A DNA stretch of 32,960 bases from contig MNXM01000057.1 of assembly GCA_001872605.1 (NCBI GenBank), positions 1 to 32,960 on the forward strand, given 5' to 3'. The notes under the pieces were generated by a model. It worked only from the letters and a program-made list of their open reading frames with translations, was not told the origin of the DNA and did no database searches. Each line of letters starts with the position of its first letter. Position 1 is the stretch's first letter. Below, in pieces: positions 3,851 through 22,148 of this stretch. This stretch comes from Armatimonadetes bacterium CG2_30_59_28. GTDB lineage: Bacteria; Armatimonadota; Abditibacteriia; CG2-30-59-28. Both the position numbers and the translations under genes were made by a program.

Positions 3851-4382
3851 TCAATCTTTAATCTTGGCATCGGATCCTGTAAGTCTTTTCGCCAAGTGCT
3901 CAACATCTTTGCGGAACTTGCGGTCCTGGAGCATCTGCTCCGCCACTCGCCGATGGGCAATACTCACGGCCGGTGCGCCGATCCCACCAAGGCGGACTCA
4001 CAGAGTCCGATTTCGACCCTTTACCCGTATCTCCGACTCCTCGATGACATACGCATCTGACACTATCCGGCAGATGCTGCCCAAATCCATTCTCGGCAAC
4101 GCACCCTGCAGCCACGCCACCTCTTCCTGCGGCTTTTGTATTGCCAGCCTCTCTCGCACCCGCTCCACGAACTCCCGCGTCCCCAAGTACCGCGCCATAC
4201 AACATCTCCCGCAACGGGTCCTCGGGCATCTCAGACTCGACGAACTCCCGATACTTCTCGATCTGTTCCTTGGGCGTGCCACCGAACTGCCGCAGCGTCG
4301 GTGCAACCTCCAACCAGTAGTGCAGACGCCCACGATGGATTTTCTCGTGGAGCGTGGCACGGCAATTGTCAACACGCGGCAT
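3851..4382 (-). pseudogene. REP-associated (RAYT/Y1_Tnp-like) transposase relic in several frames
   Basis: Three blocks in order resemble the C-terminal half of REP-associated tyrosine transposases. The first contains LRQFGGTPKEQIEKYREFVE, frame A, to about 4195. The second is LGTREFVERVRERL through VSDAYVIEESEIRVKGRN, frame B, to about 4011. The third is GGIGAPAVSIAHRRVAEQML through KIKD and a stop at 3851. The shift between the first two lies near 4190. Between the second and third, a 17-bp palindrome with an in-frame TGA sits where relatives have roughly 25-30 more residues (the YLxRxxTGxxxxEIG part). The catalytic Y1 region with the HUH motif and Tyr is missing; only a start-like MPR remains at 4382. 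It is clearly dead. RAYTs mobilise REP palindromes, which is relevant because palindromes lie inside and just upstream of it. Confidence 0.75.
3993..4009. repeat. REP-like palindrome, copy 1 (inside RAYT relic)
   Basis: A perfect 7-3-7 palindrome, CGGACTC-ACA-GAGTCCG, flanked by G and A. Read on the minus strand it is the unit TCGGACTCTGTGAGTCCGC. It interrupts the RAYT coding sequence and contributes an in-frame TGA. Confidence 0.85.
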
Positions 4383-4421
4383 TGTGGGGGGTGTAAGTAA
4401 GATTTGTGATGGCGCATGATT

Positions 4422-4438
4422 CGGACTCTGTGAGTCCG
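4422..4438. repeat. REP-like palindrome, copy 2 (upstream of RAYT relic)
   Basis: CGGACTC-TGT-GAGTCCG, flanked by T and C, 40 nt upstream of the start-like ATG of the RAYT relic. It is identical to copy 1 in the opposite orientation, so the RAYT relic lies between two inverted copies. Confidence 0.85.
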
Positions 4439-4451
4439 CCGTGATCGTCAG

Positions 4452-4475
4452 CCCTGTAGCCCCTCTGCTACAGGG
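4452..4475. repeat. Second type of short palindrome, upstream of RAYT relic
   Basis: CCCTGTAGC and GCTACAGGG form a 9-bp perfect stem around a 6-nt loop (CCCTCT). The sequence is unrelated to the CGGACTC family but sits 13 nt from copy 2. It has no T-tract and no gene upstream that it would terminate. Confidence 0.6.
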
Positions 4476-4538
4476 GTAATGTGACGGTTCCACCTGTTCC
4501 CTGCGAGCCCCCGCTCGCTCAGCTTACTTGCACCCGCG

Positions 4539-4922
4539 CGCGTCGATGCGCTTGCGCAGAACTTTGACATCTACCCGACGCTTTGCGACGCGGCGGGAAT
4601 TGCAGTCCCCGATACCGTAAAGGGGAAGAGCTTTCTGCCGGTGATACGTGGGGAAGAGCAAAAGGTCCATGAATACGCGTTCTCCTTCTACACCCATTAC
4701 CAGCGGATGGTTACAGACGGCTGCTGGAAGATGATCCGCTACTACAGGGATGCCTGGCCGGGAATGGAGGGAGACACGGACACTCTGCAGCTTTTCGACT
4801 TGACGGGAGATCCGTGGGAAACTGCGAATATTGCCGACCATCACAGAGACGTTGTTTACCGTCTGGCCACGGAACTGGAAAAGTGGCAAAGGGCTGTGGG
4901 CGACCCGCTCCTCCACGAATAG
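4539..4922 (+). pseudogene. C-terminal remnant of an arylsulfatase-family enzyme
   Basis: The frame reads VDALAQNFDIYPTLCDAAG, then a GKSFLPVIRGEE segment, MVTDGCWKMIRY, and LFDLTGDPWETANIAD. This is the typical last quarter of type I sulfatases, which hydrolyse sulfate esters using a formylglycine and Ca. The catalytic C-x-P-S-R region and most of the protein are missing. Recognisable homology begins near 4539, directly beside the RAYT relic and the palindromes, so the gene was probably truncated by rearrangement there. No start codon with a ribosome site serves this fragment. Confidence 0.75.
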
Positions 4923-5025
4923 CATTCAGTACCCGGTACTCAGACTGGCAGTATGCCGGCCCCTTCGATTGCAGGCCGGTTGGCAAGTGACCACGGGTGG
5001 TTCCATCGACGAAAGTTGGGAATCG

Positions 5026-5055
5026 TTGTGCCTCATATAGCGAATATGCTATGAT
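5026..5055 (+). promoter_or_regulatory. Predicted promoter and operator of the higBA pair
   Basis: TTGTGC (5026-5031), an 18-nt spacer and TATGAT (5050-5055), about 30 nt before the toxin start. An inverted repeat ATAGC...GCTAT (5037-5041 and 5048-5052) lies inside the spacer and overlaps the -10 box. That is where an autorepressing HigA-type antitoxin would be expected to bind. Confidence 0.5.
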
Positions 5056-5085
5056 TGCAGTCGCCGGCTGGCGTGGAGGGCGCAA

Positions 5086-5427
5086 GTGTGGAGAGTTGAA
5101 TTCTATTCCGACACAAGCGGAACGGAACCGGTGAAGAATTTCGTTGTTGCGCAGGACTACAAGCACAGAGTCAAGATTCTGCGCGCTTTTCAACTACTGC
5201 AGGAATTTGGCCCTTTGCTCCGAGAGCCTCACGCCAAACACGTGGGAGGAGGTCTCTGGGAACTGCGAATTCGGTCCGGGAGGAACGCTTACCGTATTTT
5301 GTACTTCCTCCATGCGGACGGAGCGTTCGTTCTTCTCCACGCTCTCCAGAAGAAACAGCACAGGCTGCCACCGGGTGACATCGAGATAGCCGAGAAAAGA
5401 AGGGCGGACCACTTGTCGAGGAGGTAG
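5086..5427 (+). CDS. higB: RelE/HigB-type toxin
   Basis: A 113-residue RelE-superfamily toxin (phage-derived Gp49/HigB-like). It shows WRVEFYSD at the start, then GLWELRIRSGRNAYRILYF and a VLLHALQKK segment, the core strands of the fold. These toxins cleave mRNA in the ribosome. The start is GTG at 5086 with GGAGGG 5 nt upstream. The order is toxin first, antitoxin 4 nt downstream, as in higBA. All family core segments are present and the gene looks intact. The symbol is given by family and gene order; specificity is not proved. Confidence 0.85.
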   Translation: MWRVEFYSDTSGTEPVKNFVVAQDYKHRVKILRAFQLLQEFGPLLREPHAKHVGGGLWELRIRSGRNAYRILYFLHADGAFVLLHALQKKQHRLPPGDIEIAEKRRADHLSRR

Positions 5428-5431
5428 AACC

Positions 5432-5776
5432 ATGTCCCTACGGAAGAAATCGGTAGGAGGGTCTTCTATTGAGGGCTTCCTTGCGGAACAGATGCAGGAC
5501 CCATCCTTCGCTGACGAATATCAAAAGAGCGAATGGGAATACCAGGCCGCCAAAGCGGTGATCCGGCTGAGACTGCAGCACAAAATGAGCCAGGAGCAAT
5601 TGGCGAAGCAGGCTGGAGTGCCTCCATCGACCATCGCTCGGATAGAGTCCATGTCCTTTTCTCCTACGGTGCGGATGCTTAACAAGATCGCCGCGGCAAC
5701 GGAGACCCAGTTGTTCGTTGATTTTGTCGAGAAGACAAACGGTGGTTCCGTACCCCAAATGGCCACGGCGCGTTAA
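5432..5776 (+). CDS. higA: XRE-family HigA-type antitoxin
   Basis: A 114-residue protein with a C-terminal helix-turn-helix of the XRE/Cro type: KMSQEQLAKQAGVPPSTIAR, then IESMSFSPTVRMLNKIA. This is the DNA-binding antitoxin of the preceding toxin and the likely repressor of the pair. The ATG at 5432 is preceded by GGAGG about 7 nt upstream, within the last codons of the toxin. The N-terminal 35 residues probably contact the toxin. It ends 23 nt before gatB. Confidence 0.85.
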   Translation: MSLRKKSVGGSSIEGFLAEQMQDPSFADEYQKSEWEYQAAKAVIRLRLQHKMSQEQLAKQAGVPPSTIARIESMSFSPTVRMLNKIAAATETQLFVDFVEKTNGGSVPQMATAR

Positions 5777-5799
5777 GTTCCAACTCATCTCTGCTCGCG

Positions 5800-7251
5800 A
5801 TGGTGATTAGTTTGACAGAATTCGAACCCGTTATCGGGATGGAAATGCACACAGAGCTTGGGACGCAGAGCAAGATCTTCTGCGGTTGCAGCACTGCGTT
5901 TGGCGCGGAGCCTAACACGCAGACTTGCCCCGTTTGCCTGGGTCTGCCGGGTTCTCTTCCCGTGCTGAACCGTCAGGTCGTGGAGTACGGACTGCGGGCC
6001 GCTCTGGCTCTTCACTGCAAGGTGAATGCTCCGTGCATCATGGAACGCAAGAACTACTACTACCCCGACCTGCCGAAGGCGTATCAGATTTCTCAGCGCA
6101 TGTTGCCACTGGGCGCGGAGGGGTATGTCGAGATACCAGGCGACGGAGGGACAAAGCGAGTGGGTATCACCGACGCCCACATCGAGGAGGACACCGGCAA
6201 GTCGCTCCACGGTTCACTGGCCGGAGACCCCGACTCCAGCCTCATCGACTACAATCGCTCCGGCATTCCCCTGCTGGAGATCATCAGCGAGCCCGACATG
6301 AACTCGGTCGAGGACGCGGAAGCCTACATGGAAACCATGCGTTCCATCATGCTCTATCTCGAAGTCTCCGACTGCAAAATGGAGCATGGGCGGATGCGCT
6401 TCGAGGCGAGCGTCTCACTGCGCCCCAAGGGAACGACAAAGCTGGGAACGCGGGTGGAAATCAAGAACCTCAACTCGTTTCGAGCGGTGACCCATTCTCT
6501 GCTGAGCGAGATCGATCGCCAGCGGAAGCTGCTCGGAGCGGGCGTGGAAATCGTGCAGGAAACCATGCTCTGGGACGAAGAACGCGGAGTCACTGAGCCG
6601 ATGCGCTCAAAGGAGTTCGCGCACGACTACCGCTACTTCCCTGAGCCGGACCTTGTTCCCATTGTCATTGATGATGCGTGGATCAACCGGGCGCGCGCCG
6701 TCCTGCCCGAACTGCCCCGCGCCCGGCGACAGCGATTTGTCCGGGAATTCAGCCTGCCGGAGTATGACGCCACGGTTCTTACCTCCGCCAAAGCTTCGGC
6801 GGATTTCTTTGAAACGGCGACCGGCCTTTACGATAGTCCCAAGGTTATTAGCAACTGGATGATGGGCGATTTCGCCGCTCTACTGAACGCGGACGGCAGG
6901 GAGATTCAAGATTCCTCCGTGACTCCCAAACGGCTCACCGATATGCTGAAAATGATTGATGGGGAAATCATCAGCGGCAAGATCGCCAAGACCGTGTTTG
7001 AAGAGATGTACCGCACCGGCAGGGCCCCCGGAGAGATCGTCAAGGAGAAAGGACTCGTCCAGATCTCGGATGAGTCAGCCGTCGAGTTGATTGTCGACGA
7101 AGTAATTGCCGAAAACCCCGACGCCGTTGAGAATTTCAGAGGCGGGAACGAGAAATCCATCGGTTTCCTCGTGGGTCAGGTTATGAAGAAGAGCCGCGGA
7201 AAGGCTAACCCGCAACTGGTGAATGATCTCCTGAAGAGGAGGATGGGATGA
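5800..7251 (+). CDS. gatB: Aspartyl/glutamyl-tRNA(Asn/Gln) amidotransferase subunit B
   Basis: A 483-residue GatB, the kinase/transferase subunit of GatCAB that amidates misacylated Glu-tRNA(Gln) or Asp-tRNA(Asn). Hallmarks are PVIGMEMHTELGTQSKIFCGC with the second Cys pair in TCPVCLGLPG (zinc site), ERKNYYYPDLPKAYQISQ, DYNRSGIPLLEIISEPD, and the C-terminal Yqey-like tail (residues about 335-483, ending VNDLLKRRMG). The length is normal. No strong ribosome site precedes the ATG at 5800; a GTG one codon later is possible. gatA and gatC are not adjacent. There is no clear promoter in the 23 nt after higA, so read-through from the toxin-antitoxin promoter is possible. Confidence 0.96.
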   Translation: MVISLTEFEPVIGMEMHTELGTQSKIFCGCSTAFGAEPNTQTCPVCLGLPGSLPVLNRQVVEYGLRAALALHCKVNAPCIMERKNYYYPDLPKAYQISQRMLPLGAEGYVEIPGDGGTKRVGITDAHIEEDTGKSLHGSLAGDPDSSLIDYNRSGIPLLEIISEPDMNSVEDAEAYMETMRSIMLYLEVSDCKMEHGRMRFEASVSLRPKGTTKLGTRVEIKNLNSFRAVTHSLLSEIDRQRKLLGAGVEIVQETMLWDEERGVTEPMRSKEFAHDYRYFPEPDLVPIVIDDAWINRARAVLPELPRARRQRFVREFSLPEYDATVLTSAKASADFFETATGLYDSPKVISNWMMGDFAALLNADGREIQDSSVTPKRLTDMLKMIDGEIISGKIAKTVFEEMYRTGRAPGEIVKEKGLVQISDESAVELIVDEVIAENPDAVENFRGGNEKSIGFLVGQVMKKSRGKANPQLVNDLLKRRMG

Positions 7252-7336
7252 CTCGGCGGTGGAACCGGATGGGGATGGTACACCAGACTCCGCCTGAGTG
7301 AGGGAATGTCGCGGGGAGTAGCCAAGGGCTCCGCAA

Positions 7337-8785
7337 TCAGCGGTATCCTCGTTGCGCGAGAGCATCACGAAAGGCGACGTATCCTTCGTCGTATGCGAGC
7401 GCCAGTCGTTCATCCGGGTCAACGCAGTGACGGACGCGCACCATCTGATTCTGTGCGTCACGGCAGCTCCCCAGCCGCGGAGCGCCTGCGAGGATGGCGG
7501 AGCCGAAGGCGCTGGCGGGGTTCTGTGGGACAAGCATTGAGCGGCGGGAGACTGCGGCGCGAATGCGTAGCCAGAGATCGTTCTTCGTCGCACCGCCGGT
7601 TGCGTGCGTTGCGTTCGTGCGCGGGAGACCCAGCGATTCCAGCACACCGATTCCCATCCGCTCGAGATAGGCAATTCCCTCCATGCCCGCGGCAAACCGT
7701 TCGGCAACATCGGTGATTTCCGTAAGGCCGAATCCTTTCGCGGTTGGGCAGGAGAAGGGGAACCTCTCCCCTTCCGTTTCCAGAGGATAGACGTACCGAC
7801 CCGTGGGAATTCGCTCCGCAGCCTGCGCCTCCAAGTGCGGCAAGCTCACGTCCGACGTTGCCGTTCTCACCCATCCGGCTCCCGCACTGGACGCGGCGCC
7901 CGGCAGGTAACCTCCATCGGGGTGCCGGTGGTTATAGATCCTCTCTCCAGTATCGACGAGGGGTGACTCCGAGCCGCCCTTGAAAACAAGTGTCGTACCC
8001 AGAGTTACATTCAGGTCCCCCGGCGCCTTGATGCCGGAGGCAACCGCGGCGGCGGTTCCGTCAGTGCATCCGCTGACGACGGGTATGCCTCGCGGAAGCC
8101 CCGACTGCCCCGCTGCCGCGTCTGTGAGGTAGCCAATCACCTCTCCCGAAGGACGAACCCGCGGGAATCGATCCAGCGGTAGACCCAGCGTGTGCTCGAT
8201 CTCCGCGGGCCACTCGAGGGTGCCGGGGTTCACTCCGGTCTTCAGCGCAGAGGAGACATCGGTAACCTCAAAGCAACCGGTTAGCATTCCGACGATGTAG
8301 TCAGTCTGATGCACAACCGATCGGCACCTGTCGATGAGTTCTGGGTTGTTTCTCTTGATAAACAGTAGTTTGCACAGCGCAAACGCGGGAGCGATGCCGA
8401 TCCCGTAGGGCTGCAGCACATCGCGCAACGCATTCTGCGCCTCGGCGCAGAGGTCCGCTGCCCTCAGGTCGCTGTAGAGAATGCCCGGCGTGATCGGCGA
8501 GTGAGCATGGTCGAGCAGCAGGAACGTGCCCGAGGTCGCGTCCACCGCAATGCCGACGACTTCGGGAATGGGCTTCTCCCGGAGTAAAATCGCGCCAAGC
8601 TGATGCAGCACGTGCCACACGGTTTCCGTCCACACATGGGGGGATTGCTCAACGGTGGGGCCTTCGCAACGAGTGGTTCCCGCAGGGAAGTCGCACTGAA
8701 CTGCCGCCACCATCTCACCATCGAGAGACGCCGCCATCGCTCGTACACCGGTGGTGCCGACGTCGATGCCGATGCTGAGTTCCAT
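7337..8785 (-). CDS. FGGY-family carbohydrate kinase
   Basis: A 482-residue sugar kinase of the FGGY (actin-like ATPase) fold. The N-terminal phosphate-binding motif is IGIDVGTTGVRAMAASLDG, and the second domain contains PVVSGCTDGTAAAVASGIK, LNVTLGTTLVFKGG and the adenosine motif THATGGATKNDLWLRI. It resembles the D-ribulokinase/sedoheptulokinase branch (YDR109C-like) more than glycerol or xylulose kinases, but the substrate cannot be read from sequence. The gene lies 45 nt downstream of the aldolase/dehydrogenase fusion on the same strand. The two probably form a pathway of sugar phosphorylation followed by retro-aldol cleavage and aldehyde oxidation. The start is ATG 8785, with GGAG 9 nt upstream; ATG 8800 is an alternative. 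Confidence 0.88.
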   Translation of the reverse strand: MELSIGIDVGTTGVRAMAASLDGEMVAAVQCDFPAGTTRCEGPTVEQSPHVWTETVWHVLHQLGAILLREKPIPEVVGIAVDATSGTFLLLDHAHSPITPGILYSDLRAADLCAEAQNALRDVLQPYGIGIAPAFALCKLLFIKRNNPELIDRCRSVVHQTDYIVGMLTGCFEVTDVSSALKTGVNPGTLEWPAEIEHTLGLPLDRFPRVRPSGEVIGYLTDAAAGQSGLPRGIPVVSGCTDGTAAAVASGIKAPGDLNVTLGTTLVFKGGSESPLVDTGERIYNHRHPDGGYLPGAASSAGAGWVRTATSDVSLPHLEAQAAERIPTGRYVYPLETEGERFPFSCPTAKGFGLTEITDVAERFAAGMEGIAYLERMGIGVLESLGLPRTNATHATGGATKNDLWLRIRAAVSRRSMLVPQNPASAFGSAILAGAPRLGSCRDAQNQMVRVRHCVDPDERLALAYDEGYVAFRDALAQRGYR

Positions 8786-8829
8786 CGCTCGTTTCTCCAT
8801 GGCGAATGAACGCCCGTCCACAAGGAAGG

Positions 8830-10797
8830 TCAGATCACTCGTTCATTACCGCCGTCCACGGGTATCTGCGCCCCCGTCGTTTTCGCAAAAAGGGGCCCGC
8901 ACAACTCGGCTGCCAGTTCAGCGACATTATGACTGGTGACCTCTGTTCGCAGGACGTTATGGGTTTTGTACTCCCCCACGGTCATCTTGTAGTGGGCAGC
9001 GCGTTTCTGGAGGACTTCCTCCGTCCAGATGCCGGTGTCGAACACAGCGTTCGGGTGCAGCGTGTTCACCCGGATGCCGTCGTCGCCCCACTCCAGAGCC
9101 GCCACGCGCGCCAGTTGGTTCATGGCTGCTTTGGAGGCCGAATAAGCCGCCGCTCCGGGTCCGGGAGCGGGGACGTTCTTTGAGCCGATGACGGCCACGC
9201 GTCCGCCGCGAGGCGCGAGTTTGAGCAGTGGATGCAGTTCCCTCATCAGCACAAGGTTTGAGTCCAGGTTAATTCGCATGACGCGATTCCACTCGGAGGT
9301 GGCGAGAGCATCAATGCGCACGCTGGGCGGGAAGATGCCCGCGTTCAGGACGAGCATGTCCACTCCGCCGAAAGCGCTGACCCCAGCGTCGAGGGCATTC
9401 ACGACCGCATCTTCATCGGTCAGGTCGCACCGGAGACCGAGGACCTCGGGCAGCTCAAACATGTGAGTGATCTTCGCGTTAAGGTCGAGGGCCACCACCG
9501 CCGCGCCACGGGACACGAGAGAGTCCACGCACGCTCGACCGATTCCAGATGCGGCGCCGGTGACGAAGGCGACTTCACCCGTGAAGACCTTCAGCGGGCC
9601 GGCTTTCAGCAGTTTGGCCTGTTGCAGTTCCCAATACTCCATGTCGAACATGTCCTGTGCGGAAAGGGCCTGCCACTTTTCCAGTAGTTCAGAGCGGAGA
9701 ATGATGTTGATTGCGTGCTGGTACAAGTCGGTCGCGATGGCTGCGTCGCGAGCCGAACGTCCCAGCGCGCACATGCCGATGTCCGGGTCGAGCACGATGC
9801 GCGGCGCAGGATCGTGCATGGTTAGATTCCTGCCTCCGGAGCAGGCAACGAAGTACTCTTCGTAGGCTCGTCGGTACTCCTGAACATCCCGTCCCAGCAT
9901 GGGCACGCGCTTGGTGCGGATGGCGTGGTCAGGTGTTGCCGCTCCCTGTAACGCGATGCGGCCAATATCCTCACGTCGGGCGAAGGCAATACAGGTGTCG
10001 TCCGAGCAGGTTCGCATGATAATCGGGGCGCCGGCGGCTTCCGAGATATTGCCGCGAAGTGAAGCGAGTTCGACGCGCGAGACTTGCGTCCGCGATGCCG
10101 CCTCGACTTGCGGCAGATGCCATGCGCCCTCTTGCGCAAGGTACTGTTCGGCGAGGTCGACCAGTTCAATCATCCTCTCGTACGATGATCTCGCAGTGTC
10201 GCCCAAGGTGAACAGACCACGGTGCATTAGCACCACGCCGACCGTTTGGGGCCCCGCGTGCTCAGGGAGGAGTTCGGCACAACGACGCGCCAGTTGGAAT
10301 CCCGGCATGGTGTAGGGGACGACGACCACGCGGTCGCCGTAGATTTCTCCGACCCGTTCCAGTCCCCCGGGAGTGTTCATCACCGACAGGAGAGCATCGG
10401 CATGGGTGTGGTCCACGTACTTCGCCGGAAGCACCGCGTGGAGAATGGCCTCCACCGACGGATTGGGCGCGGCGGGGTTTCGCTTGCAGGCGTACAGTTC
10501 GCGAGCCATCTCCGTGTCGGAGAGCGACTTCAGTGCAACCAGCCGGCGGAGATGCTGTATGCGAAGGGCAACGAAATCCTGCGGTTCGATGGTCGCCAAA
10601 TCCGCCCCGCTGCTCTTGACATACAGCACATTCTCTTCTCCGCCAAAGAGGTTGCGCTCCTGCAGCTTGACGGAGGTGTTCCCCCCGCCGTGCAGCACCA
10701 GCGACGGATCGCTGCCCAGCAATCGCGAGGTATAAACCCGCTGGCCTATCTCACTGCCATACTGCTGTGCCTCTGCGTCATTCCACAAACTCTTCAT
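8830..10797 (-). CDS. Bifunctional class II aldolase / short-chain dehydrogenase (RhaD/RhaEW-like)
   Basis: A 655-residue fusion. The N-terminal half (to about residue 395) is a class II aldolase/epimerase domain, with LHGGGNTSVK for phosphate binding and DHTHADALL supplying zinc-binding His residues. The C-terminal half is an SDR dehydrogenase with the NAD motif TGAASGIGRA and the catalytic YSASK near LARVAALEWGDDGIRVN. The architecture matches bifunctional rhamnulose-1-phosphate aldolase/lactaldehyde dehydrogenase proteins. These cleave a ketose-1-phosphate to dihydroxyacetone phosphate and an aldehyde, which the SDR domain then oxidises or reduces. Substrate identity is inferred only from architecture. 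The start at 10797 has GGAGG 7 nt upstream. The neighbouring FGGY kinase probably makes its substrate. Confidence 0.9.
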   Translation of the reverse strand: MKSLWNDAEAQQYGSEIGQRVYTSRLLGSDPSLVLHGGGNTSVKLQERNLFGGEENVLYVKSSGADLATIEPQDFVALRIQHLRRLVALKSLSDTEMARELYACKRNPAAPNPSVEAILHAVLPAKYVDHTHADALLSVMNTPGGLERVGEIYGDRVVVVPYTMPGFQLARRCAELLPEHAGPQTVGVVLMHRGLFTLGDTARSSYERMIELVDLAEQYLAQEGAWHLPQVEAASRTQVSRVELASLRGNISEAAGAPIIMRTCSDDTCIAFARREDIGRIALQGAATPDHAIRTKRVPMLGRDVQEYRRAYEEYFVACSGGRNLTMHDPAPRIVLDPDIGMCALGRSARDAAIATDLYQHAINIILRSELLEKWQALSAQDMFDMEYWELQQAKLLKAGPLKVFTGEVAFVTGAASGIGRACVDSLVSRGAAVVALDLNAKITHMFELPEVLGLRCDLTDEDAVVNALDAGVSAFGGVDMLVLNAGIFPPSVRIDALATSEWNRVMRINLDSNLVLMRELHPLLKLAPRGGRVAVIGSKNVPAPGPGAAAYSASKAAMNQLARVAALEWGDDGIRVNTLHPNAVFDTGIWTEEVLQKRAAHYKMTVGEYKTHNVLRTEVTSHNVAELAAELCGPLFAKTTGAQIPVDGGNERVI

Positions 10798-10872
10798 TGC
10801 AGCGCCTCCATTGTCCGGGTCCAATCAGCCACAGTCCATTGCTCCGTCGTGCCGCAGAACCTGACCGTCAAG

Positions 10873-11313
10873 CTACGCGCCCAACACCGAGGTGCATTGC
10901 GGGCAACGTGTTGCCTGAACGGGAATCGTGCAGAAGCAGAAAGCGCACTCCTTGGTTTCAGGGGCATCTTCCTTCGACTCTTCCACTTTCTTCAGACGGT
11001 TCACCTGCCGGACAACGATGAAGATGGCGAACGCCACAATCACGAAGTCGAGCACCGTGTTGATGAACAACCCGTAGTTGATGGTGGCAGCTCCCGCCTT
11101 TTTGGCGGCGTCCAGGGAAGCATAGGTCTGTCCCGACAGATTAATGTAGAGATTGGAGAAGTCTATCTTCCCCATGAGCAGTCCGATGGGCGGCATCAGC
11201 ACATCGCTGACGAAGGAGGTCACTATCTTCCCGAACGCCGCCCCGATGACGATGCCCACCGCCATGTCCAGTACATTGCCCTTCACCGCAAACTCTCTGA
11301 ATTCTTTCAGCAT
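10873..11313 (-). CDS. mscL: Large-conductance mechanosensitive channel with zinc-ribbon tail
   Basis: A 146-residue MscL, the pentameric inner-membrane safety valve opened by tension during osmotic downshock. The start is [20 protein letters not shown] (amphipathic helix plus the first part of TM1), followed by [20 protein letters not shown] and a second helix, [20 protein letters not shown]. After the cytoplasmic helix the tail carries [19 protein letters not shown], a zinc-ribbon-like pair of C-x2-C motifs. Many bacterial MscL proteins have this tail but E. coli lacks it. The start at 11313 is preceded by AGAGGAG and lies 16 nt after the GT-C gene, so the two are probably co-transcribed. 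Confidence 0.95.
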
Positions 11314-11329
11314 CTCAGTCTCCTCTTGT

Positions 11330-13270
11330 TCAGTCTTTGATCCCACGCGAACGACCCGAGGTCACCTCCATCACCAGAATTCTTCCGTTGCGCGTGTCGT
11401 GCAGGACGCGGAGGTCCCCAGTCTGAATCCCCTGCCGCATCAACGCAGGCAGACCTCCCTCCTGCTCCAAGGGGAAATATGTCTGGTTGATGAGAACATG
11501 CGTCACTCCGAGCCGCGTCCAATGCTCAATCAGATCCTCGGGCGACCGGAGGCTTTGATAGGGAATCAGCGTGTGGTGTCCTGGGTCTCCCCACAAGTAC
11601 TCCCGGTCCAGGTAGAACCCGCGTGGCTCGCCGTATGTGATGATCTTCGCGTTGCGGGGCAGGTTCTCGTTGATCCACTGGCACATTGCATATTGATCGA
11701 GGTATCGAGAGAGATACACCTCCTGCGACATTGTCCCGATGGCTACCGGAAGCGTCATCCTCGTTATGAAGCGATTGAGTCCAATGAGAAGTACGGCGAA
11801 GAGAATGAGAGATAGATCGGCCATCCAGCGCACCTTTGCCGACCGTTCCTGCAGTGCGGCGATGCAGCAACCTGCAGGGATGCTCAGAATTGCCAGGCAG
11901 GGAATCAGATACCGGTTGTATTGCATGATGGCGAACCAAGCGCCTGATAGAAGCAGCGAAACCCACAGGAGACGTCGCAGGGGCGGCGCGCAGGGCAGCA
12001 GTAGTAGTGGCGCTACAAACAACAGGTACAGCGGGCCCACCGCGCTGGACATCGAGGGTTGTACCTCGTATCGTATCGGCGTTTTCTGCACTCCCCCCGA
12101 AAGGCGGGCGTCGGTCTTCGTCGCAATGCTGAACGGGTAGACGGACACACGCCAGGGGGTCGTGAGCAGTCCGACGAGGCTGCGGTCGCCGTAGGATTTC
12201 TGCTCGGCCCAATAGCTGTCGGCGGTCTCCTGATTCCAGTTCCGCCCCCCAAAGATTCCGTAAGCAAAGGGATAGACGGGATTCCCCGTCCACGCAAGGT
12301 TTTTCAGGTACCACGGAGAAGCAACCACACAAGCCAGGAGCAGTACCTTCAGCGCCTTTCGCATCTGGTGTCTGAAATCTGAATCCAGAATTCCCACCGC
12401 GGCCACCAGCATTGCCACCGTCATTACCGCGAAGATGACGATGCCCAGGTATTTCGTTCCCATCAGGAATCCGCCACACAGGCCGGCGGCCACCCACCAC
12501 CCAGAGCGCTTCTCAATAAGGGTCTGCTCAAGGGAGTAGAATAGCAGCAATGCGAACAGGGCGAGGGCAATATCCACGTAGGCAGTGGACGCTTCGGAGA
12601 ATACTGCTGGTGTCAGTCCGAAGACCAGCGCGGCCATCAAACCGGCCCGACGCGAGAACTGCCTCCTCCCCATTTGATACAGTGCGAGCAGTGTTAGAAC
12701 GAACGACCCGAAGTGGAATAGCTTCGCAGCAATTGCGCCGCGCAAGCCAAGCCCGAGCGTGTATAGCATTTCCATCGTGAACGGGAAGTTGGAGTGGTGG
12801 TCGTAGGGGAGATACTCAATGCGGTGTCTGGCGAGGTATACCTGCGGCGCGGCCAGATGATAGGTGAGTGAGTCGTAGTCGTTCGCGATGGGTGGCGTCA
12901 GAGTCGCTGTTAGAGTGATCAGCAGGTTTACCAGGAGCAGACCGAGTATTACCTTGTCAAAGATGAAAAGGTTGTTCGTCTCATTGTTGGACGATCTTAG
13001 GTTCACTGGTCGCAGCTTCAAGGCGAGCAGCGCAACTGTTCCCGCCGCTACCAGAAGCGCCATCAACGCGGCGGGGGTCAGCGGGCCAATCAGACCCAAC
13101 GCGAGCACGAGGTATGCCACGATGCCCAGCCCGCATGGTAGACAGACGACGATGGATTCCAGTAGGGAGTCGAACCGCAGTCGCGACGCGCCGAACAGGT
13201 GAAGCGCGAGACCGAAGGCGATCAGACAGACGAGGAAAAGAAAGAGGATGTCGAGAAGGTGAGATAACAA
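11330..13270 (-). CDS. GT-C/PMT-type multi-pass membrane glycosyltransferase
   Basis: A 646-residue protein with about 12-13 hydrophobic segments and the PMT/ArnT-like signature [20 protein letters not shown] in the first periplasmic loop, where the acidic pair is the usual catalytic site. [19 protein letters not shown] and [11 protein letters not shown] follow, and a soluble C-terminal domain begins after residue 520. Such enzymes move sugars from polyprenyl-phosphate carriers onto lipids or proteins at the outer face of the membrane. The assigned start is TTG at 13270 with only a weak ribosome site; an in-frame TAG 30 nt upstream limits extension. mscL follows after 16 nt. Acceptor and donor are unknown. 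Confidence 0.8.
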
Positions 13271-13300
13271 CGCGTAGCCACGGTTCCCATCGGAGTGCCG

Positions 13301-13414
13301 CTACCCTGTGATGAAGGCTGCAACATTGGCGAGATAAACCATCGAGACGACGATGACCCATCCGACGATGACAATATCTGAAAGCTCGCTATTGGACGAA
13401 TTCTGTGATTGCAT
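13301..13414 (-). CDS. Possible small single-span membrane protein (37 aa)
   Basis: An ORF of 37 residues: a polar N-terminus (MQSQNSSNSELSD), then one hydrophobic helix (IVIVGWVIVVSMVYLANVAA) and FITG. It fills much of the gap between pspA and the GT-C gene, all on the minus strand, and ends 30 nt before the GT-C start in the same frame. The clean polar-then-hydrophobic pattern suggests a real membrane peptide, perhaps one working with PspA at the membrane. It has no strong ribosome site and I recognise no family, so it could be chance. Confidence 0.4.
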   Translation of the reverse strand: MQSQNSSNSELSDIVIVGWVIVVSMVYLANVAAFITG

Positions 13415-13515
13415 TCACCGACACCGGATGACAGGATAACGGAATGGAGAGACCCCCCGGACACGTCGCCGTCCCGTCGTCAGCATTCAACCGCCACTGC
13501 CGACTTATTGCCTGC

Positions 13516-14331
13516 CTACTGCGTTCCCGTCTGCTGTTGCGGTTGCATGGTCGGCTGGTCCGATCCCGGTTCGGTCGCCTCGGAGTCTGAGTTCGCTGCT
13601 TCCAGCGTCCGCTGTGGGGGTGCGACGGGTTCCATGGTCTTCTCGTCCCCCGCTTCCTCGGGTGCCATGCCCAGTTGTCGTTTGTATTCCAGCAACTTCT
13701 CATCCACGCCAATTCGCGCAGAGGCTTTCTTGATGTCATTCAGCTTAGAGTCCACCCCGGAAGTCGCGAGCTCAACACGAGCCTGGGCTCTGGCAGCGCG
13801 CTCGTCGATCTTCTCGGTCATCCGGTCGAGAATGTCCGTCTGGTCTCCAATCTCGAAGGAGGTCATCAGGCCGGCAAGCTGCTCCTGCATCTTCGCCTGC
13901 TTGCTCTTGTTGATGGCCCGCATGGCTTCCTGAATCTTCTGGTTCATGGTGCGCATGAAGTCATCGCGCGCGTCGCGCGCTTTTTCAGACGCGGCCTTGG
14001 CCAGATTATACTGTTGTCGCGTGTCTTCCAAGTCTTCGCGGGCCGTCTCAACTGCAGAGATCAGCGTCTTGGCTTCTTCCTCATATTCCGGGCCGAGCTT
14101 GATGGCAGCAATGATCTGAGCGTCCAGATCGGTCACCTTCTTCTCCAATCGCTCGACCTGGTTTTTCGTCATGTACTCATTCTTCATAACCTCAGCCACG
14201 GTGTCGTTCATCTTCGGCACTTGGGAGCGCATGTCATCCATGTACTGCTGCAGCATCCGGTCCGGGTCCTCCAACCCGCGCACGAATACGCCAAAGAAAG
14301 ACCGAATTGCCATCCACATTCGTTTGAACAT
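13516..14331 (-). CDS. pspA: PspA/IM30 (Vipp1-like) membrane-stress protein
   Basis: A 271-residue, mostly alpha-helical coiled-coil protein of the PspA/IM30 family. These peripheral membrane proteins assemble into ESCRT-III-like rods and rings that protect damaged inner membranes. It starts with the amphipathic helix MFKRMWMAIRSFFGVF, followed by the family segment DPDRMLQQYMDDM. Long heptad-rich helices run to about residue 220, then a Gln/Pro/Thr-rich disordered tail ending QQQTGTQ. No pspF, pspB or pspC lies nearby. It has its own promoter upstream (TATAAT at 14415-14410). The downstream 37-residue membrane ORF could be a partner. Confidence 0.9.
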   Translation of the reverse strand: MFKRMWMAIRSFFGVFVRGLEDPDRMLQQYMDDMRSQVPKMNDTVAEVMKNEYMTKNQVERLEKKVTDLDAQIIAAIKLGPEYEEEAKTLISAVETAREDLEDTRQQYNLAKAASEKARDARDDFMRTMNQKIQEAMRAINKSKQAKMQEQLAGLMTSFEIGDQTDILDRMTEKIDERAARAQARVELATSGVDSKLNDIKKASARIGVDEKLLEYKRQLGMAPEEAGDEKTMEPVAPPQRTLEAANSDSEATEPGSDQPTMQPQQQTGTQ

Positions 14332-14690
14332 TGATTACCCCCGAGTGCATTTCTGAACCCGCCGCGTCGCACACAATGCGCATCCTGCGTGCAGCCGCGG
14401 CCTCGCTGCATTATACCAAATCCGGTTGTAAGTGAACAAGGAGCGGAGATGACTTTTACGCTGGTTCATGGAAACCCTGTTCGGTTGTACAGGAGTTGTC
14501 CGCGTCAGGCACAGTCACGCGCCGCACACGTGCTCCTCCCTTCTCGCTCTCTCTCTGCCAGAGGGCAGGGCAACGGTTCCATCTGGAGAAAAATCTCGAG
14601 AAGTCTCTGTTGCTCTGCTGTTTCAACTTTGACAGGAATCCTCCCGCCTACGATGGTAAGCCCGATCACCGGACAGGAGAGAGGATCGCC
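14332..14690. other. Intergenic region between pspA and A2M relic
   Basis: 359 bases without a convincing gene. It holds the pspA promoter near its left end. The rest, from about 14440 to 14690, has open frames with no recognisable protein signature and no clear ribosome site. It is probably decayed sequence from a former alpha-2-macroglobulin gene, since the last part runs in frame into the recognisable A2M tail. Confidence 0.5.
14410..14439 (-). promoter_or_regulatory. Predicted pspA promoter
   Basis: On the minus strand TTGTTC (14439-14434), an 18-nt spacer and a perfect TATAAT (14415-14410). The predicted leader is about 75 nt. It looks like a housekeeping-type promoter; no sigma54 (GG-N10-GC) element is evident, unlike the E. 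coli psp operon. Confidence 0.6.
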
Positions 14691-14993
14691 AATAATCAGC
14701 GCGGCGCGGCGAACATGGTGGTCGTGGACCTCGGCATCCCTCCGGGGTTTGACGTGCAGACCGGAGACCTCGCCGAGCTCGTCGGCTCCAAAGTGTTGAC
14801 GAAGTTCGAGCTGACTGGACGACAGGCCATTCTCTACCTCGACCGCGTCGAACCCGGCAAGCCGGTTACCTTTGAGTACCGACTAAAGGCCCAGTACCCG
14901 CTGAAAGTCAAGACTCCCGGATCGACCGTTTACGAATACTACGCGCCCAAAGTCGCCGCGGTGGCAAAGCCGGTGGAGATGGTGGTGAAGTAG
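14691..14993 (+). pseudogene. Alpha-2-macroglobulin family C-terminal remnant
   Basis: The frame from NNQRGAANMVVVDLGIPPGF through RQAILYLDRVEPGKPVTFEY to STVYEYYAPKVAAVAKPVEM matches the final (receptor-binding-like) domain of bacterial alpha-2-macroglobulins. These are very large periplasmic or outer-membrane protease traps. Complete family members exceed 1500 residues; here only about 100 remain, and the thioester and bait regions are absent. Upstream sequence in the same frame back to 14496 is not recognisable. A second, shorter copy of the same tail occurs 320 nt downstream. Confidence 0.75.
14971..14991 (+). repeat. Direct repeat, left copy (A2M tail)
   Basis: 21 bp from CGGTGGAGATGG to GTGAAGT, identical to 15292-15312. 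It encodes the PVEMVVK end of the A2M relic. Similarity extends upstream of the repeat with changes. Confidence 0.8.
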
Positions 14994-15024
14994 TGCTACA
15001 ATGAGCGGCGGAGGTGAAGCGACC

Positions 15025-15309
15025 ATGGCACATACCATGACGTTACAGGTTCCCGATGACATCTACCAGCCACTGGTGAATGCGGCGGAAGTGATCGACC
15101 GCCAGCCAGAGGAAGTGGCCGTCGAGTGGCTCAGCTCCGTGGCCAACGACGTCAACCACGATCCTTTGCTGGCGTTGGCAGGTACGCTGGAATGTGAACT
15201 GACTGACGTGGCTGACCGGCATGACGACTACATAGGGCAAGGACTGCCGAAGGAAGCGAACAATCTCCCAATGCGTCCGCAGTCGCACAGTCGGTGGAGA
15301 TGGTGGTGA
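15025..15309 (+). CDS. Orphan antitoxin-like protein
   Basis: The protein starts MAHTMTLQVPDDIYQPLVNA, then AEVIDRQPEEVAVEWLSSV, and a conserved-looking DPLLALAGTLECELTDVADR HDDYIGQGL stretch. This resembles small (about 85 aa) ribbon-helix-helix-like antitoxins that usually precede a PIN toxin. The ATG at 15025 is supported by GGAGGTG 8 nt upstream. No toxin follows. The last 14 residues (from about PMRPQSHSR) are read out of frame through a second copy of the A2M tail, so the native C-terminus has been replaced. It may still make a functional DNA-binding antitoxin, or be a relic. Confidence 0.6.
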   Translation: MAHTMTLQVPDDIYQPLVNAAEVIDRQPEEVAVEWLSSVANDVNHDPLLALAGTLECELTDVADRHDDYIGQGLPKEANNLPMRPQSHSRWRWW

Positions 15310-15312
15310 AGT
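15262..15312 (+). repeat. Second copy of the A2M C-terminal tail (with 21-bp direct repeat)
   Basis: In the frame not used by the antitoxin ORF this reads QSPNASAVAQSVEMVVK, closely similar to APKVAAVAKPVEMVVK at the end of the A2M relic. The last 21 bp are identical (15292-15312 against 14971-14991). The antitoxin gene is thus sandwiched between two A2M ends, which suggests former tandem A2M genes or a duplication. Confidence 0.6.
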
Positions 15313-15370
15313 GCAGCCGCTTGGCGGACAGGAATGCCCGCCCTCCAAAACCGTTGGCAAAATCCCTGCT

Positions 15371-15994
15371 CTAAGCAGGCGGGGGGGCGGCAAAGGATAC
15401 TCGCTGAGGGTGCACTGACGGGGAAGGTGAAGTGCTCTTACGGTGCTGCCCTAATCTTGCCGCGCATACTCGTGACGTACTCTCTTCCAGGAAATCGAGC
15501 GGTGGCGGTATTTTCGTGATGACATCTCGTGCCTCATTGCTGACGGGGCCGAGCAATTCCAACAGTATCCCGCAGCCTTGCACCCTCCGTTCGGCAGCAC
15601 GATCTCTCGAGGCGGTCAACAGACTCTCCGCAAGTCGTACCAAGTTCTCTTCCACAAACTGCCAGTTGGCCAACTTCTCCTTGGAGTGTCTGATTACTCG
15701 CCCGAGTCTCACAACCAGGTCTTCATAGACACCCGCGGCAAATTCGCCGGTATGGTTGGCGCAGAACTGGAAGAGAAGCCTCGCCGTAAAGCGCCATTCA
15801 CAAACCGAAGACTCCAAGTCCACCCACTCCTCTCGGGGTATGACGCCGTCGAGCCCTTTCTCTACCATTCGGTCCACCAGGCGAGCGTAATCATCAAGCT
15901 CGACCTCTTGTTCACGGAACCCGGCGGCCGTTCTGCCGCCTTGTCCGTGTTTCTGAAAGAGACCTCTGAAGAGAACAAGTCTTACAGCGGGCAC
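15371..15994 (-). CDS. Hypothetical protein, helical, unknown family
   Basis: A 207-residue frame from GTG 15994, with AGGAG just upstream. I do not recognise it. The middle (VELDDYARLVDRMVEKGLDG to LLELLGPVSNEARDVITK) is amphipathic and helical, with evenly spread charged residues and no low complexity, as in a real protein. The opposite strand also carries an open frame (15578-16135), but that reads less like a protein. The last 30 residues look poorly ordered. It lies between an orphan antitoxin and an IS element, so it may be a cargo gene or a decaying one. No neighbour suggests a role. Confidence 0.4.
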   Translation of the reverse strand: MPAVRLVLFRGLFQKHGQGGRTAAGFREQEVELDDYARLVDRMVEKGLDGVIPREEWVDLESSVCEWRFTARLLFQFCANHTGEFAAGVYEDLVVRLGRVIRHSKEKLANWQFVEENLVRLAESLLTASRDRAAERRVQGCGILLELLGPVSNEARDVITKIPPPLDFLEESTSRVCAARLGQHRKSTSPSPSVHPQRVSFAAPPPA

Positions 15995-16658
15995 CGGACT
16001 CCTGCGCTCAAACGGCGCGCTGCTTCAGTGTCATGTCCCATTCTGAGCGTCCATTATCGCACGTTCCGGGTGGTTGCGCACTTCTACGGGAAAGGGGTCT
16101 TCCCCAATGCTTTCAAGTTGTTTGGAGCAGGGTAACGCGACAGGGCACCTCCTTTGGCAGTGCGAGTTGCCTAGCCTCCAACTTAGGCATTTCTTTGGGA
16201 GGCGGCAGACCGGCCTCCAAGCGGGCCTGAGTGTATCCAGCCCAATACAGCAACCATGCCAAAGCGATCTGTAATTCTCGCAAGAGCTGTGTGGGAGAAA
16301 AGGGGCGCTTCTGACCGGAGTGATATAGAACCAAAAGGCAGTAGACGATCAAGGCCATCAGGAGTTGGCGTTGGACCGCGGTCGCACTGTAGCCAACGAA
16401 GGACTTCACCTGCAGGCTCCGCTTGATCCACCGAAACACAATTTCAATCGTCCAACGATAGCGGTATAAGAGGCAAATCTTCCAGGCAGCCAGATTCCTT
16501 ATGTTGGTGAGAATCTGCAGCGGATTGCCTTTGCTATCTAAAACCTTGAGAAACCGGTAACGATGGCGAGCCCTGTTCTCCGGACTGCCCAACTCGATTG
16601 CATAATTTCCCAGGAGGGTATACCCCGTTCGGACAGAAGTCTTGGGAGGGGGCCGCTG

Positions 16659-16675
16659 CGGACTCACAGAGTCCG
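16659..16675. repeat. REP-like palindrome, copy 3
   Basis: CGGACTC-ACA-GAGTCCG flanked by G and A, inside the IS4 transposase. The reading frame shifts across it by +1 modulo 3, between HKGYRWKVV and TSVRTGYTLLG. Confidence 0.85.
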
Positions 16676-16942
16676 ACTTGAACCACTTTCCAACGGTACC
16701 CTTTATGAAGCTTAGTCACGAAAAAGCTCTTGGCTTCGGCGATCCGGTCATAGGTCTTAATCCCCCGGTAGCCGCAGTCAAAAAGGTAAATCTGACCTTC
16801 TGCCAGGTCCAGGTCCAATTCCAAAAGCTTCTCAAAATGCTTGGCATCGTTCTCTTTCGCAGTGGCAATGAGGATCTTTTCGATTCCCTGGCATCCAGCG
16901 CCCAGCTTGAGTTGCACCCGCACACCCGCCTGTGTGTCACAT

Positions 16943-16959
16943 CGGACTCTGCGAGTCCG
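16943..16959. repeat. REP-like palindrome, copy 4
   Basis: CGGACTC-TGC-GAGTCCG flanked by T and C, inside the IS4 transposase between SPPLASTLRY and TQAGVRVQLK. The frame shift across it is again +1 modulo 3. Confidence 0.85.
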
Positions 16960-17231
16960 CATAGCGCAGAGTTGAAGCCAATGGGGGGGAAAGTTCACAC
17001 GTCGTAGAGTCGAAAAGGTGAGTGGTCGTCAACAGCTCTTGGATTCCCCGCAGGGCCGCGGGATTCAGGTCTCGCAAGACCCGAGGGGTTCCGGCTGCGC
17101 TGCGAAGTTGTGCGATTAAATCATTAAGGGCCTCGACCAGCGGTTCCAGCGGACGCCCCGCATTGGCATCGGCGAGCGCTTGAACACTCGCTTCAAAGCG
17201 GGCGCCGTAAAGAATATACAGTGGGTCGTTT

Positions 17232-17248
17232 CGGACTCTGCGAGTCCG
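17232..17248. repeat. REP-like palindrome, copy 5
   Basis: CGGACTC-TGC-GAGTCCG flanked by T and C, in the N-terminal third of the IS4 transposase. A TAA stop lies a few bases upstream on the coding strand. Confidence 0.85.
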
Positions 17249-17296
17249 CGGCAATTATGGAATGATGATCCCGTAAACTGCGAACTCGGGTCGGGG

Positions 17297-17313
17297 CGAA
17301 CTCTGCGAGTTCG
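17297..17313. repeat. REP-like palindrome, copy 6 with compensated arms
   Basis: CGAACTC-TGC-GAGTTCG flanked by G and A. Relative to the other copies both arms changed together (G to A in one, C to T in the other), so the stem stays perfectly paired. Confidence 0.8.
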
Positions 17314-17533
17314 AGAAGAAAAGGACCCAGGATCGCAAGAAGGGCTTGAAAAAAATCTTCCGGGCATTCTTGTCAAAGTGATAGTGCTCAGCGTTTTGAG
17401 CTAACCGCAAGAGCGCCAGCGGTTGCACCAGACGGCTTAAGGCTTTCGGACATGCGAACTCGCGAAACTTGAGGTGCATTGCTGTCATGGTGGCTTCGTT
17501 CCTTGCTACGGAGATGGGTGCAACGAATCGCTT

Positions 17534-17548
17534 CGGACTCTGAGTCCG
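17534..17548. repeat. REP-like palindrome, copy 7, short loop
   Basis: CGGACTC-T-GAGTCCG flanked by T and C, in the leader of the IS4 element upstream of its transposase start. The arms are identical to the main type but the loop is 1 nt instead of 3. Confidence 0.8.
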
Positions 17549-17592
17549 CGCAAAACGGACCGCTACGCAGCCCTCAGGCTATATTATAACCT

Positions 17593-17607
17593 CGGACTCT
17601 GAGTCCG
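17593..17607. repeat. REP-like palindrome, copy 8, short loop
   Basis: CGGACTC-T-GAGTCCG flanked by T and C, 59 nt from copy 7 in the same orientation and between the IS4 transposase start and the right inverted repeat. Confidence 0.8.
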
Positions 17608-17683
17608 CAGCGACTACGTCGCCTCCAAATGCACCTTGCCCCACTATGCCAAAAAAACGGGCAAAACAACTTGACAGCATTGG

Positions 17684-17956
17684 GTGCAGGCCCATCTTCT
17701 GGTTTGCTTCCTGGCGTATGTCCTCTGGAAGACGTTGGCGCAGTCCCGACCTGTCGGGACGGGGTTGGGAGACGAGCCGCGGAAGGTGTTCGATGAGATC
17801 GCACAAATCCGCTTGGTAGACGCGATCCTGCCTACCCGTCAAGGGATTGAAATTCGTAAACGCTGTATCACCCAGCCCACCGAACACCAGGCGATCCTGC
17901 TGGACAAACTGAAACTCCACCTGCCCAGACAACTGTCGATGCACGAAATGCAGTGA
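17684..17956 (+). pseudogene. IS1634-type transposase, C-terminal fragment
   Basis: About 90 residues: QAHLLVCFLAYVLWKTLAQ, then GLGDEPRKVFDEIAQIRLVD, LPTRQGIEIRKRC and AILLDKLKLHLPRQL. This is the usual end of IS1634-family DDE transposases (the AHFLVCFLALVLWRTLE-type segment with the trailing catalytic region). The fragment begins exactly at the right inverted repeat of the IS4 element. The rest of the gene is absent on the far side of that element, so insertion was accompanied or followed by deletion. An 18-bp palindrome sits inside the frame. Confidence 0.75.
17743..17760. repeat. In-frame 18-bp palindrome in the IS1634-type fragment
   Basis: GTCCCGAC-CT-GTCGGGAC, a perfect 8-bp stem. 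It encodes SRPVGT exactly where relatives have a short loop before GLGD, so it looks like an 18-nt (in-frame) insertion. The sequence differs from the CGGACTC family. Confidence 0.65.
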
Positions 17957-22106: not shown

Positions 22107-22148
22107 GACAGGATGTACTCGAACTCGCAGAATCCGATGCATCCTGTC
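22107..22148 (-). promoter_or_regulatory. Leader hairpin of the dipeptidase operon
   Basis: GACAGGATG (22107-22115) pairs perfectly with CATCCTGTC (22140-22148) around a 24-nt loop. It would form in the 5' leader of the dipeptidase transcript, 62-104 nt before the ATG. The loop contains a decayed REP-like palindrome. The role is unknown; protein binding or attenuation are options. Confidence 0.4.
22120..22136. repeat. Decayed REP-like palindrome, copy 9
   Basis: CGAACTC-GCA-GAATCCG matches the CGGACTC/CGAACTC family at 14-15 of 17 positions, with two unpaired arm positions. It is the only family member outside transposon relics. Confidence 0.45.

Follow-up and report, generated by a model that had tools for sequence, protein, structure and literature searches.

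Rickettsia palindromic elements (RPEs) are palindromes that insert in frame inside genes. They are 105–146 bp long (PMC2229807). The element RUP is 107 bp long, targets TA, has ends in common with IS630-Spn1 and can occupy and inactivate IS transposases; MITEs such as RUP duplicate their target (PMC2229807). REPs are smaller hairpins, which require either a GTAG or a CGTC tag and, in the GTAG type, a RAYT gene as well (PMC3733652, PMC8266576); the GTAG REP hairpin has a stem of 5–13 bp and a loop of 2–20 (PMC3733652), and the REP of S. maltophilia a perfect stem of 8 bp and a loop of 3 nt (PMC8266576). Tiny palindromes also spread in organelle genomes, including those of Volvox (11–77 nt; PMC2670323), the sponge RHE (17 bp; PMC2800124) and the yeast GC clusters GC18 and GC42, the latter with AG target-site nucleotides (PMC4478555). 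Finally, Spy transposons of the PHIS superfamily encode a DDE transposase and use the palindromic target AAATTT with no duplication (PMC4482050). In a literature search of incomplete coverage, we found no description of a mobile unit as small as the one considered here in a bacterial chromosome, and none of comparable palindromic repeats in Armatimonadota.

Results

A 19-bp palindromic unit recurs in the window

The window, that is, the whole stretch of 32,960 nucleotides that was analysed, is contig C288 of the draft MAG of Armatimonadetes bacterium CG2_30_59_28 (5.49 Mb in 344 contigs). With up to three mismatches allowed, TCGGACTCTGYGAGTCCGC occurs at six window sites (0.02 expected), five of them exact, and a strict 7-N-7 pattern at seven window sites (0 expected); no Rfam matches were found within the window. 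All palindromes named in the first-pass annotation were located, including the two short-loop forms at 17534 and 17593, the compensated copy with reversed flanks, and the decayed copy near 22120. The positions in that annotation are those of the inner 17 bases and differ by one base once the flanking T and C are included. The features are as follows:

3992–4010, minus strand: 19-bp unit TCGGACTCTGTGAGTCCGC, exact match
4421–4439, plus strand: 19-bp unit TCGGACTCTGTGAGTCCGC, exact match, within a ~200-bp repeat
16102–17685 (about), minus strand: dead IS hosting six units, DDE_Tnp_1, with terminal inverted repeats CCCCAATGCTTTCAAGTTGTTT / AAACAACTTGACAGCATTGGG
16658–16676, minus strand: 19-bp unit in the IS transposase relic, exact match, the frame stepping by one across it
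16942–16960, plus strand: 19-bp unit in the IS relic, exact match, left target TCACA^
17231–17249, plus strand: 19-bp unit in the IS relic, exact match, left target TCGTT^
17296–17314, minus strand: compensated unit with a CGAACTC stem and reversed flanks, G...A
17533–17549, plus strand: 17-bp unit with a one-nt loop (T), strict pattern match
17592–17608, plus strand: 17-bp unit with a one-nt loop (T), strict pattern match, right flank matching contig C146
22119–22137, minus strand: decayed unit, matching TCGGACTCTGYGAGTCCGC with three mismatches

The ~200-bp repeat around the 4421 unit has five other copies (L024, L041, L063, L072 and L073), in which the unit is identically placed. In the dead IS the DDE_Tnp_1 transposase is broken into fragments. 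Those on either side of the 16659 unit both match DDE_Tnp_1 (Pfam), and the minus-strand frames around it (16998 mod 3 = 0, 16667 mod 3 = 2) differ by one step, which fits an insertion of 19 bp and not one of 17 bp. The frame shift that had been proposed for two copies is thus borne out at 16659; at 16943 the step is equal (17254 mod 3 = 1) and the upstream ORF has no Pfam match. On contig C146, a related fragment carries the left flank of the 16943 unit and the right flank of the 17593 unit on the two sides of one palindrome, and the 650 bp separating the two units in the window IS are absent; either recombination between units or ordinary short-repeat deletion would yield this loss. A search of 60 genomes turned up no relative of the window IS whose gene is intact.

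Structure and distribution of the family

Flanks included, the full unit reads TCGGACTC-NNN-GAGTCCGC, and the family takes the form T-CGRACYC-(1-5 nt)-GRGTYCG-C. The further copies anticipated by the first-pass annotation are abundant: the full-genome search gave 344 units in the host genome, compensated stems included, and the strict palindrome alone was found at 210 sites in 5.49 Mb versus one site for a reversed-pattern control. When all hairpins with 7-bp arms were counted without bias in 1.25 Mb, the CGGACTC stem ranked first (97) and the compensated CGAACTC stem second (20). T...C (or G...A) flanks border the stem in 81 of 96 cases. In the flank logo, positions −2 to −4 are unconstrained and −5/−6 are C/T; solely T and C border the stem. 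Loops are mostly 3 nt (range 1–5), giving units of 17–21 bp, and a single strand of the unit folds to the expected hairpin.

Conservation of the fold was examined in all 19-mers flanked by T...C in which at most two stem positions mismatch, complementarity not being demanded. All 30 double changes within one stem pair were complementary (30/30); two double changes fell across different pairs, and six changes were single. Most of the 30 belong to one shared subfamily and, therefore, do not represent 30 events. These compensatory arm changes demonstrate that the fold is conserved, as had been claimed from the window. Palindromes of the form CGAACCC have T...C flanks too; because they lie mostly inside larger composite repeats and are without the target motif described below, they were excluded from the statistics.

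The unit is restricted to few genomes. Of the other class members, G001 (NC_groundwater_1070_Ag, a sister genus, 72% complete) has 124 units, G003 (CG06_land_8_20_14_3_00_66_21, a different family within the class) has 10, and four (G002, G004, G005 and G006) have none. Among 291 genomes of the phylum none beyond these has more than three: the 284 further Armatimonadota genomes have a chance-like 0–3 matches each, which mostly have non-complementary arms, as chance predicts. Across 84,980 species, in a search from which the records of the own genome were possibly excluded, the 19-mer TCGGACTCTGYGAGTCCGC was found only in G001, in G003 and at two isolated Clostridia/Lachnospiraceae sites, which look like chance matches. 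Three independent assemblies carry the unit. The relatives that an exact search retrieved are groundwater MAGs of the Armatimonadota; no units were found in viral contigs. The genomes compared are draft MAGs, and all sequence data come from assemblies.

Occupied and empty sites define the insertion

For a comparison of occupied with empty sites, the flanks of each copy were joined and searched across ~2.1 Mb of sequence, which gave about ten independent cases of occupied and empty homologous sites. Five are a clean +19 with no duplication (L015:512 vs L050; L028:15906 vs L021 and L015; L069:443 vs five empty homologues; L076:6185 vs L050; L144:9944 vs L142), and two more are +19 with one substitution adjoining the junction (L015:420 and L043:876). 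At the others the net gain is smaller, with one or two target bases lost: +17 at L033:6321, where the two bases are AT and whose insertion is also present in a paralogous repeat (L146:7220), +18 at L098:7321 of G001 relative to homologues in its own genome, and +15 at L042:8823, a 17-bp unit, relative to G001. From these net lengths, the inserted piece is a 19-mer that includes T and C, occasionally minus one or two target bases. Direct sequence comparison thus establishes insertion and the length of the unit, which is that of the 19-bp unit proposed in the first-pass annotation, and also that the target-site duplication typical of MITEs is absent.

The same comparison bears on the idea that local template-switch mutation at quasi-palindromes creates the units in place. 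Perfect stems would be expected from such a process, and compensatory changes are a product of quasi-palindrome correction; we nevertheless hold it to be extremely improbable, because one stem recurs at hundreds of unrelated sites and the empty homologues contain no partial palindrome.

Insertions inside genes also support the unit length. Among conserved proteins, an 18-bp unit with a 2-nt loop adds exactly 6 residues (SDSGVR) to a ROK kinase, and a P-type ATPase has 5–6 extra residues at a unit. Among de-duplicated copies from G000 and G001, 7 of the 8 units with loops of 2 or 5 nt, whose length of 18 or 21 bp preserves the frame, are situated in open frames, versus 43 of 118 for the others (p = 0.006). 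That loop length follows the reading frame is expected only if T and C are part of the unit. In this in-frame, in-gene insertion the unit is like the RPEs, which differ in being 105–146 bp long as opposed to 18 or 21 bp for the in-frame units.

Most copies are outside genes. Based on gene calls made with a home-made hexamer score, only 26 of 82 CGGACTC copies are in ORFs while 84% of the genome is coding. We attribute this avoidance of coding DNA to selection, as expected if mostly neutral insertions survive, a suggestion already made from the window. The companion suggestion, that most copies lie in dead transposases, holds within the window but not genome-wide: near the 62 non-ORF copies, about 3–5 of the best neighbouring reading fragments matched transposases, with no such match among the 25 families listed for the control. 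A conserved dyad that lies mostly outside genes might also be a regulatory or structural protein-binding site under selection. We regard this as very unlikely, as units are present or absent between paralogous repeats with a precise net length of 19 bp, in-gene insertions have a frame-dependent loop, loops range from 1 to 5 nt, and units have no fixed position relative to genes.

Units insert at a palindromic target

Alignment of insertion points revealed a preference that the first-pass annotation had not seen, for the target TCNNN^NNNGA. With copies oriented by T...C, 48 of 90 have TC exactly 3 nt to the left of the insertion point (6.6 expected) and 38 of 90 have GA exactly 3 nt to its right; TC and GA at any other offset are near background. 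Both half-sites are present in 18 of the 90, one in 50 and neither in 22; the two half-sites count as if independent. Half-sites pre-exist in the empty homologues (e.g. those of L015:512, L069:443 and L144:9944), demonstrating that the motif belongs to the target and not to the insert. When copies are oriented by T...C, the motif occurs about equally often on the two strands; such symmetry suggests an activity with two-fold symmetry that works on double-stranded DNA, and argues against a directed single-strand mechanism. A palindromic target opened at its centre with no duplication is a feature that the unit has in common with Spy transposons, which offer a precedent for the insertion chemistry proposed below. 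Spy transposons, however, are eukaryotic cut-and-paste elements with their own transposase; the unit, at 17–21 bp, has no DDE transposase of its own, and no such parent element was found for it.

In five pairs the units adjoin with no base between them (C|T), and in four of these pairs the loops differ. The unit with loop A that stands alone in L034 is present in the homologue L039 with a second unit, of loop GCA, directly after it; at least this pair, therefore, arose via insertion and not via duplication. All five pairs share one orientation, which tandem duplication would also produce. The edge of a CGGACTC unit itself reads TCCGC^, a TCNNN half-site (TCCGA-3' on the other strand); units of the CGAACTC subfamily end in TTCGC, and the match between unit end and target is therefore not general.

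Search for the mover

No gene repeatedly flanked by units was found, and across the seven class members, of which G001 is 72% complete, unit number shows no relation to the counts of Y1_Tnp, resolvase, IS110 or reverse transcriptase genes. The Y1_Tnp counts are relevant to whether the units are REPs, hairpins that a Y1 (HUH) tyrosine transposase of the RAYT/TnpA-REP kind would cut and join as single strands. The unit shares with REPs and REPtrons its hairpin size, its hundreds of mostly extragenic copies, its non-autonomy and the lack of any coded protein, and it inserts with no target duplication. Moreover, Y1_Tnp genes are present in the genome, and the junction of abutting units at C|T recalls the cleavage of TnpA-REP at CT (PMC8266576). 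However, no GTAG or CGTC tag adjoins the stem, no association with or flanking of a RAYT/Y1 gene was found, and the abutting pairs include no head-to-head dimers. The Y1_Tnp loci L114 and L115 instead sit among another palindrome, CCCCAYG-6-CRTGGGG, the Y1_Tnp loci L116 and L118 are without the unit, and Y1_Tnp number is unlinked to unit number (13 genes and no units in G004; 2 genes and 124 units in G001). The unit also differs in its palindromic target, about equally frequent on both strands unlike that of a directed single-strand insertion, and in its insertion measured as exactly 19 bp. Thus, we consider it unlikely that the units are REPs. What looks like the host's own REP system consists of the Y1_Tnp genes, some of them two-domain, with CCCCAYG-6-CRTGGGG, and is unrelated to the unit. 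The first-pass reading of the units as mobile REP-like palindromes therefore stands for a mobile family, and "REP-like" applies by analogy only.

Alternatively, each palindrome could be a scar, left when a larger transposon with CGGACTC inverted ends was excised and its ends joined, which would account for the inverted ends, the variable loops and the occasional small losses at junctions. Such an element should survive somewhere, yet single arms preceded by T, the mark of a longer form with cargo, are not commoner than arms with A, C or G in that position and have no association with TCNNN, and no full element with CGGACTC ends was found at contig ends (draft genome, 1.94 of 5.49 Mb fully read). 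About 340 scars without one full copy would be hard to explain, and we judge this origin quite improbable. The comparison with RUP and bacterial MITEs is similar: like the unit they are non-autonomous and can sit in IS transposases, but the unit is 19 bp, makes no target duplication and has no parent IS that we could find in the draft sequence read.

Discussion

We conclude that the unit is probably a non-autonomous mobile element of 19 bp (17–21), pasted whole into double-stranded DNA at TCNNN^NNNGA, duplication-free and sometimes with a loss of 1–2 bp. From the symmetry of the target we infer that the mover would be a two-fold symmetric enzyme acting in trans, which would contact TCNNN half-sites on either strand and open the target at its centre; the ends would then be joined, sometimes after slight trimming. 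Because the ends of CGGACTC units carry a target half-site, each insertion may create new targets at its edges, which would possibly explain the end-to-end units of this subfamily. Several observations are in tension with this reading: no candidate enzyme emerged from the searches for flanked genes and for gene families tracking unit number, 22 of the 90 targets have neither half-site, the ends of the CGAACTC subfamily do not match the target, and an ordinary transposase complex with paired ends would seem to need more double-stranded DNA than 19 bp. The mover itself may be missing from the draft, may have been lost or may be a host enzyme. More tentatively, the family could possibly represent a novel type of minimal mobile DNA, in which a 19-bp hairpin with ends bearing the TCNNN half-site of its target is moved by a dedicated enzyme acting on double-stranded DNA at similar sites with no duplication, every insertion generating further targets and the loop being its sole cargo.

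In size the unit is nearest to the organellar hairpins (yeast GC clusters, Volvox palindromes, sponge RHE and double-hairpin elements), which are likewise tiny, spreading and non-coding. Unlike these inhabitants of organelle genomes, it occupies a bacterial chromosome and has a precise target, TCNNN^NNNGA. Present at more than 300 genomic places, it is among the smallest mobile DNA units seen in a bacterium and illustrates how little such a unit can consist of: a pair of 7-bp arms, a short loop and a single base on either side. It also gives protein genes a sequence-specific route to gain 6-residue inserts, in which loop length sets the reading frame. Since the genome itself discloses unit length, target and the absence of duplication, the hunt for the enzyme is well defined: the protein wanted works on TCNNN^NNNGA and can handle a hairpin of 19 bp.

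Units in IS relics, and a palindrome in composite repeats

Compared with window positions 16942-17608, the related IS fragment of contig C146 of the same draft genome (fetched stretch L075:212-470) lacks the 650 bp between two units and retains a single palindrome, a difference that we take to be a deletion between units. Several units also lie inside and around another relic:

C73, around 12841-13116 (L036): IS110-type transposase relic

The palindrome CGAACCC-TTT-GGGTTCG, with T...C flanks, is enclosed by larger composite inverted repeats (cccctcaccct / agggtgagggg), among others at:

L020:764
L031:12989
L057:12310

It may be an older unit that was trapped in another repeat and amplified with it.

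Other repeats in the genome

At the ends of many contigs lies a further palindrome family with a CCCCGGA/CCCCGAA stem and a 5-nt loop; these contig-end palindromes are without T...C flanks and form part of longer repeats at which the assembly breaks. Examples are:

L053:54-126
L061:54-126
L028:18589

An additional repeat, TGTGTGAGCTACCGGACGCTGAAGCGATCCGG, is found at ~19 of 191 contig ends. Two genes each encode two tandem Y1_Tnp domains in one frame and are bordered by multiple copies of the palindrome CCCCAYG-ATTCAT-CRTGGGG, whose outer bases are conserved:

C41, near 6621-7409 (L115): about 330 aa
C78, near 4787-5563 (L114): about 280 aa

These look like an unusual double-domain RAYT with a REP family of its own.
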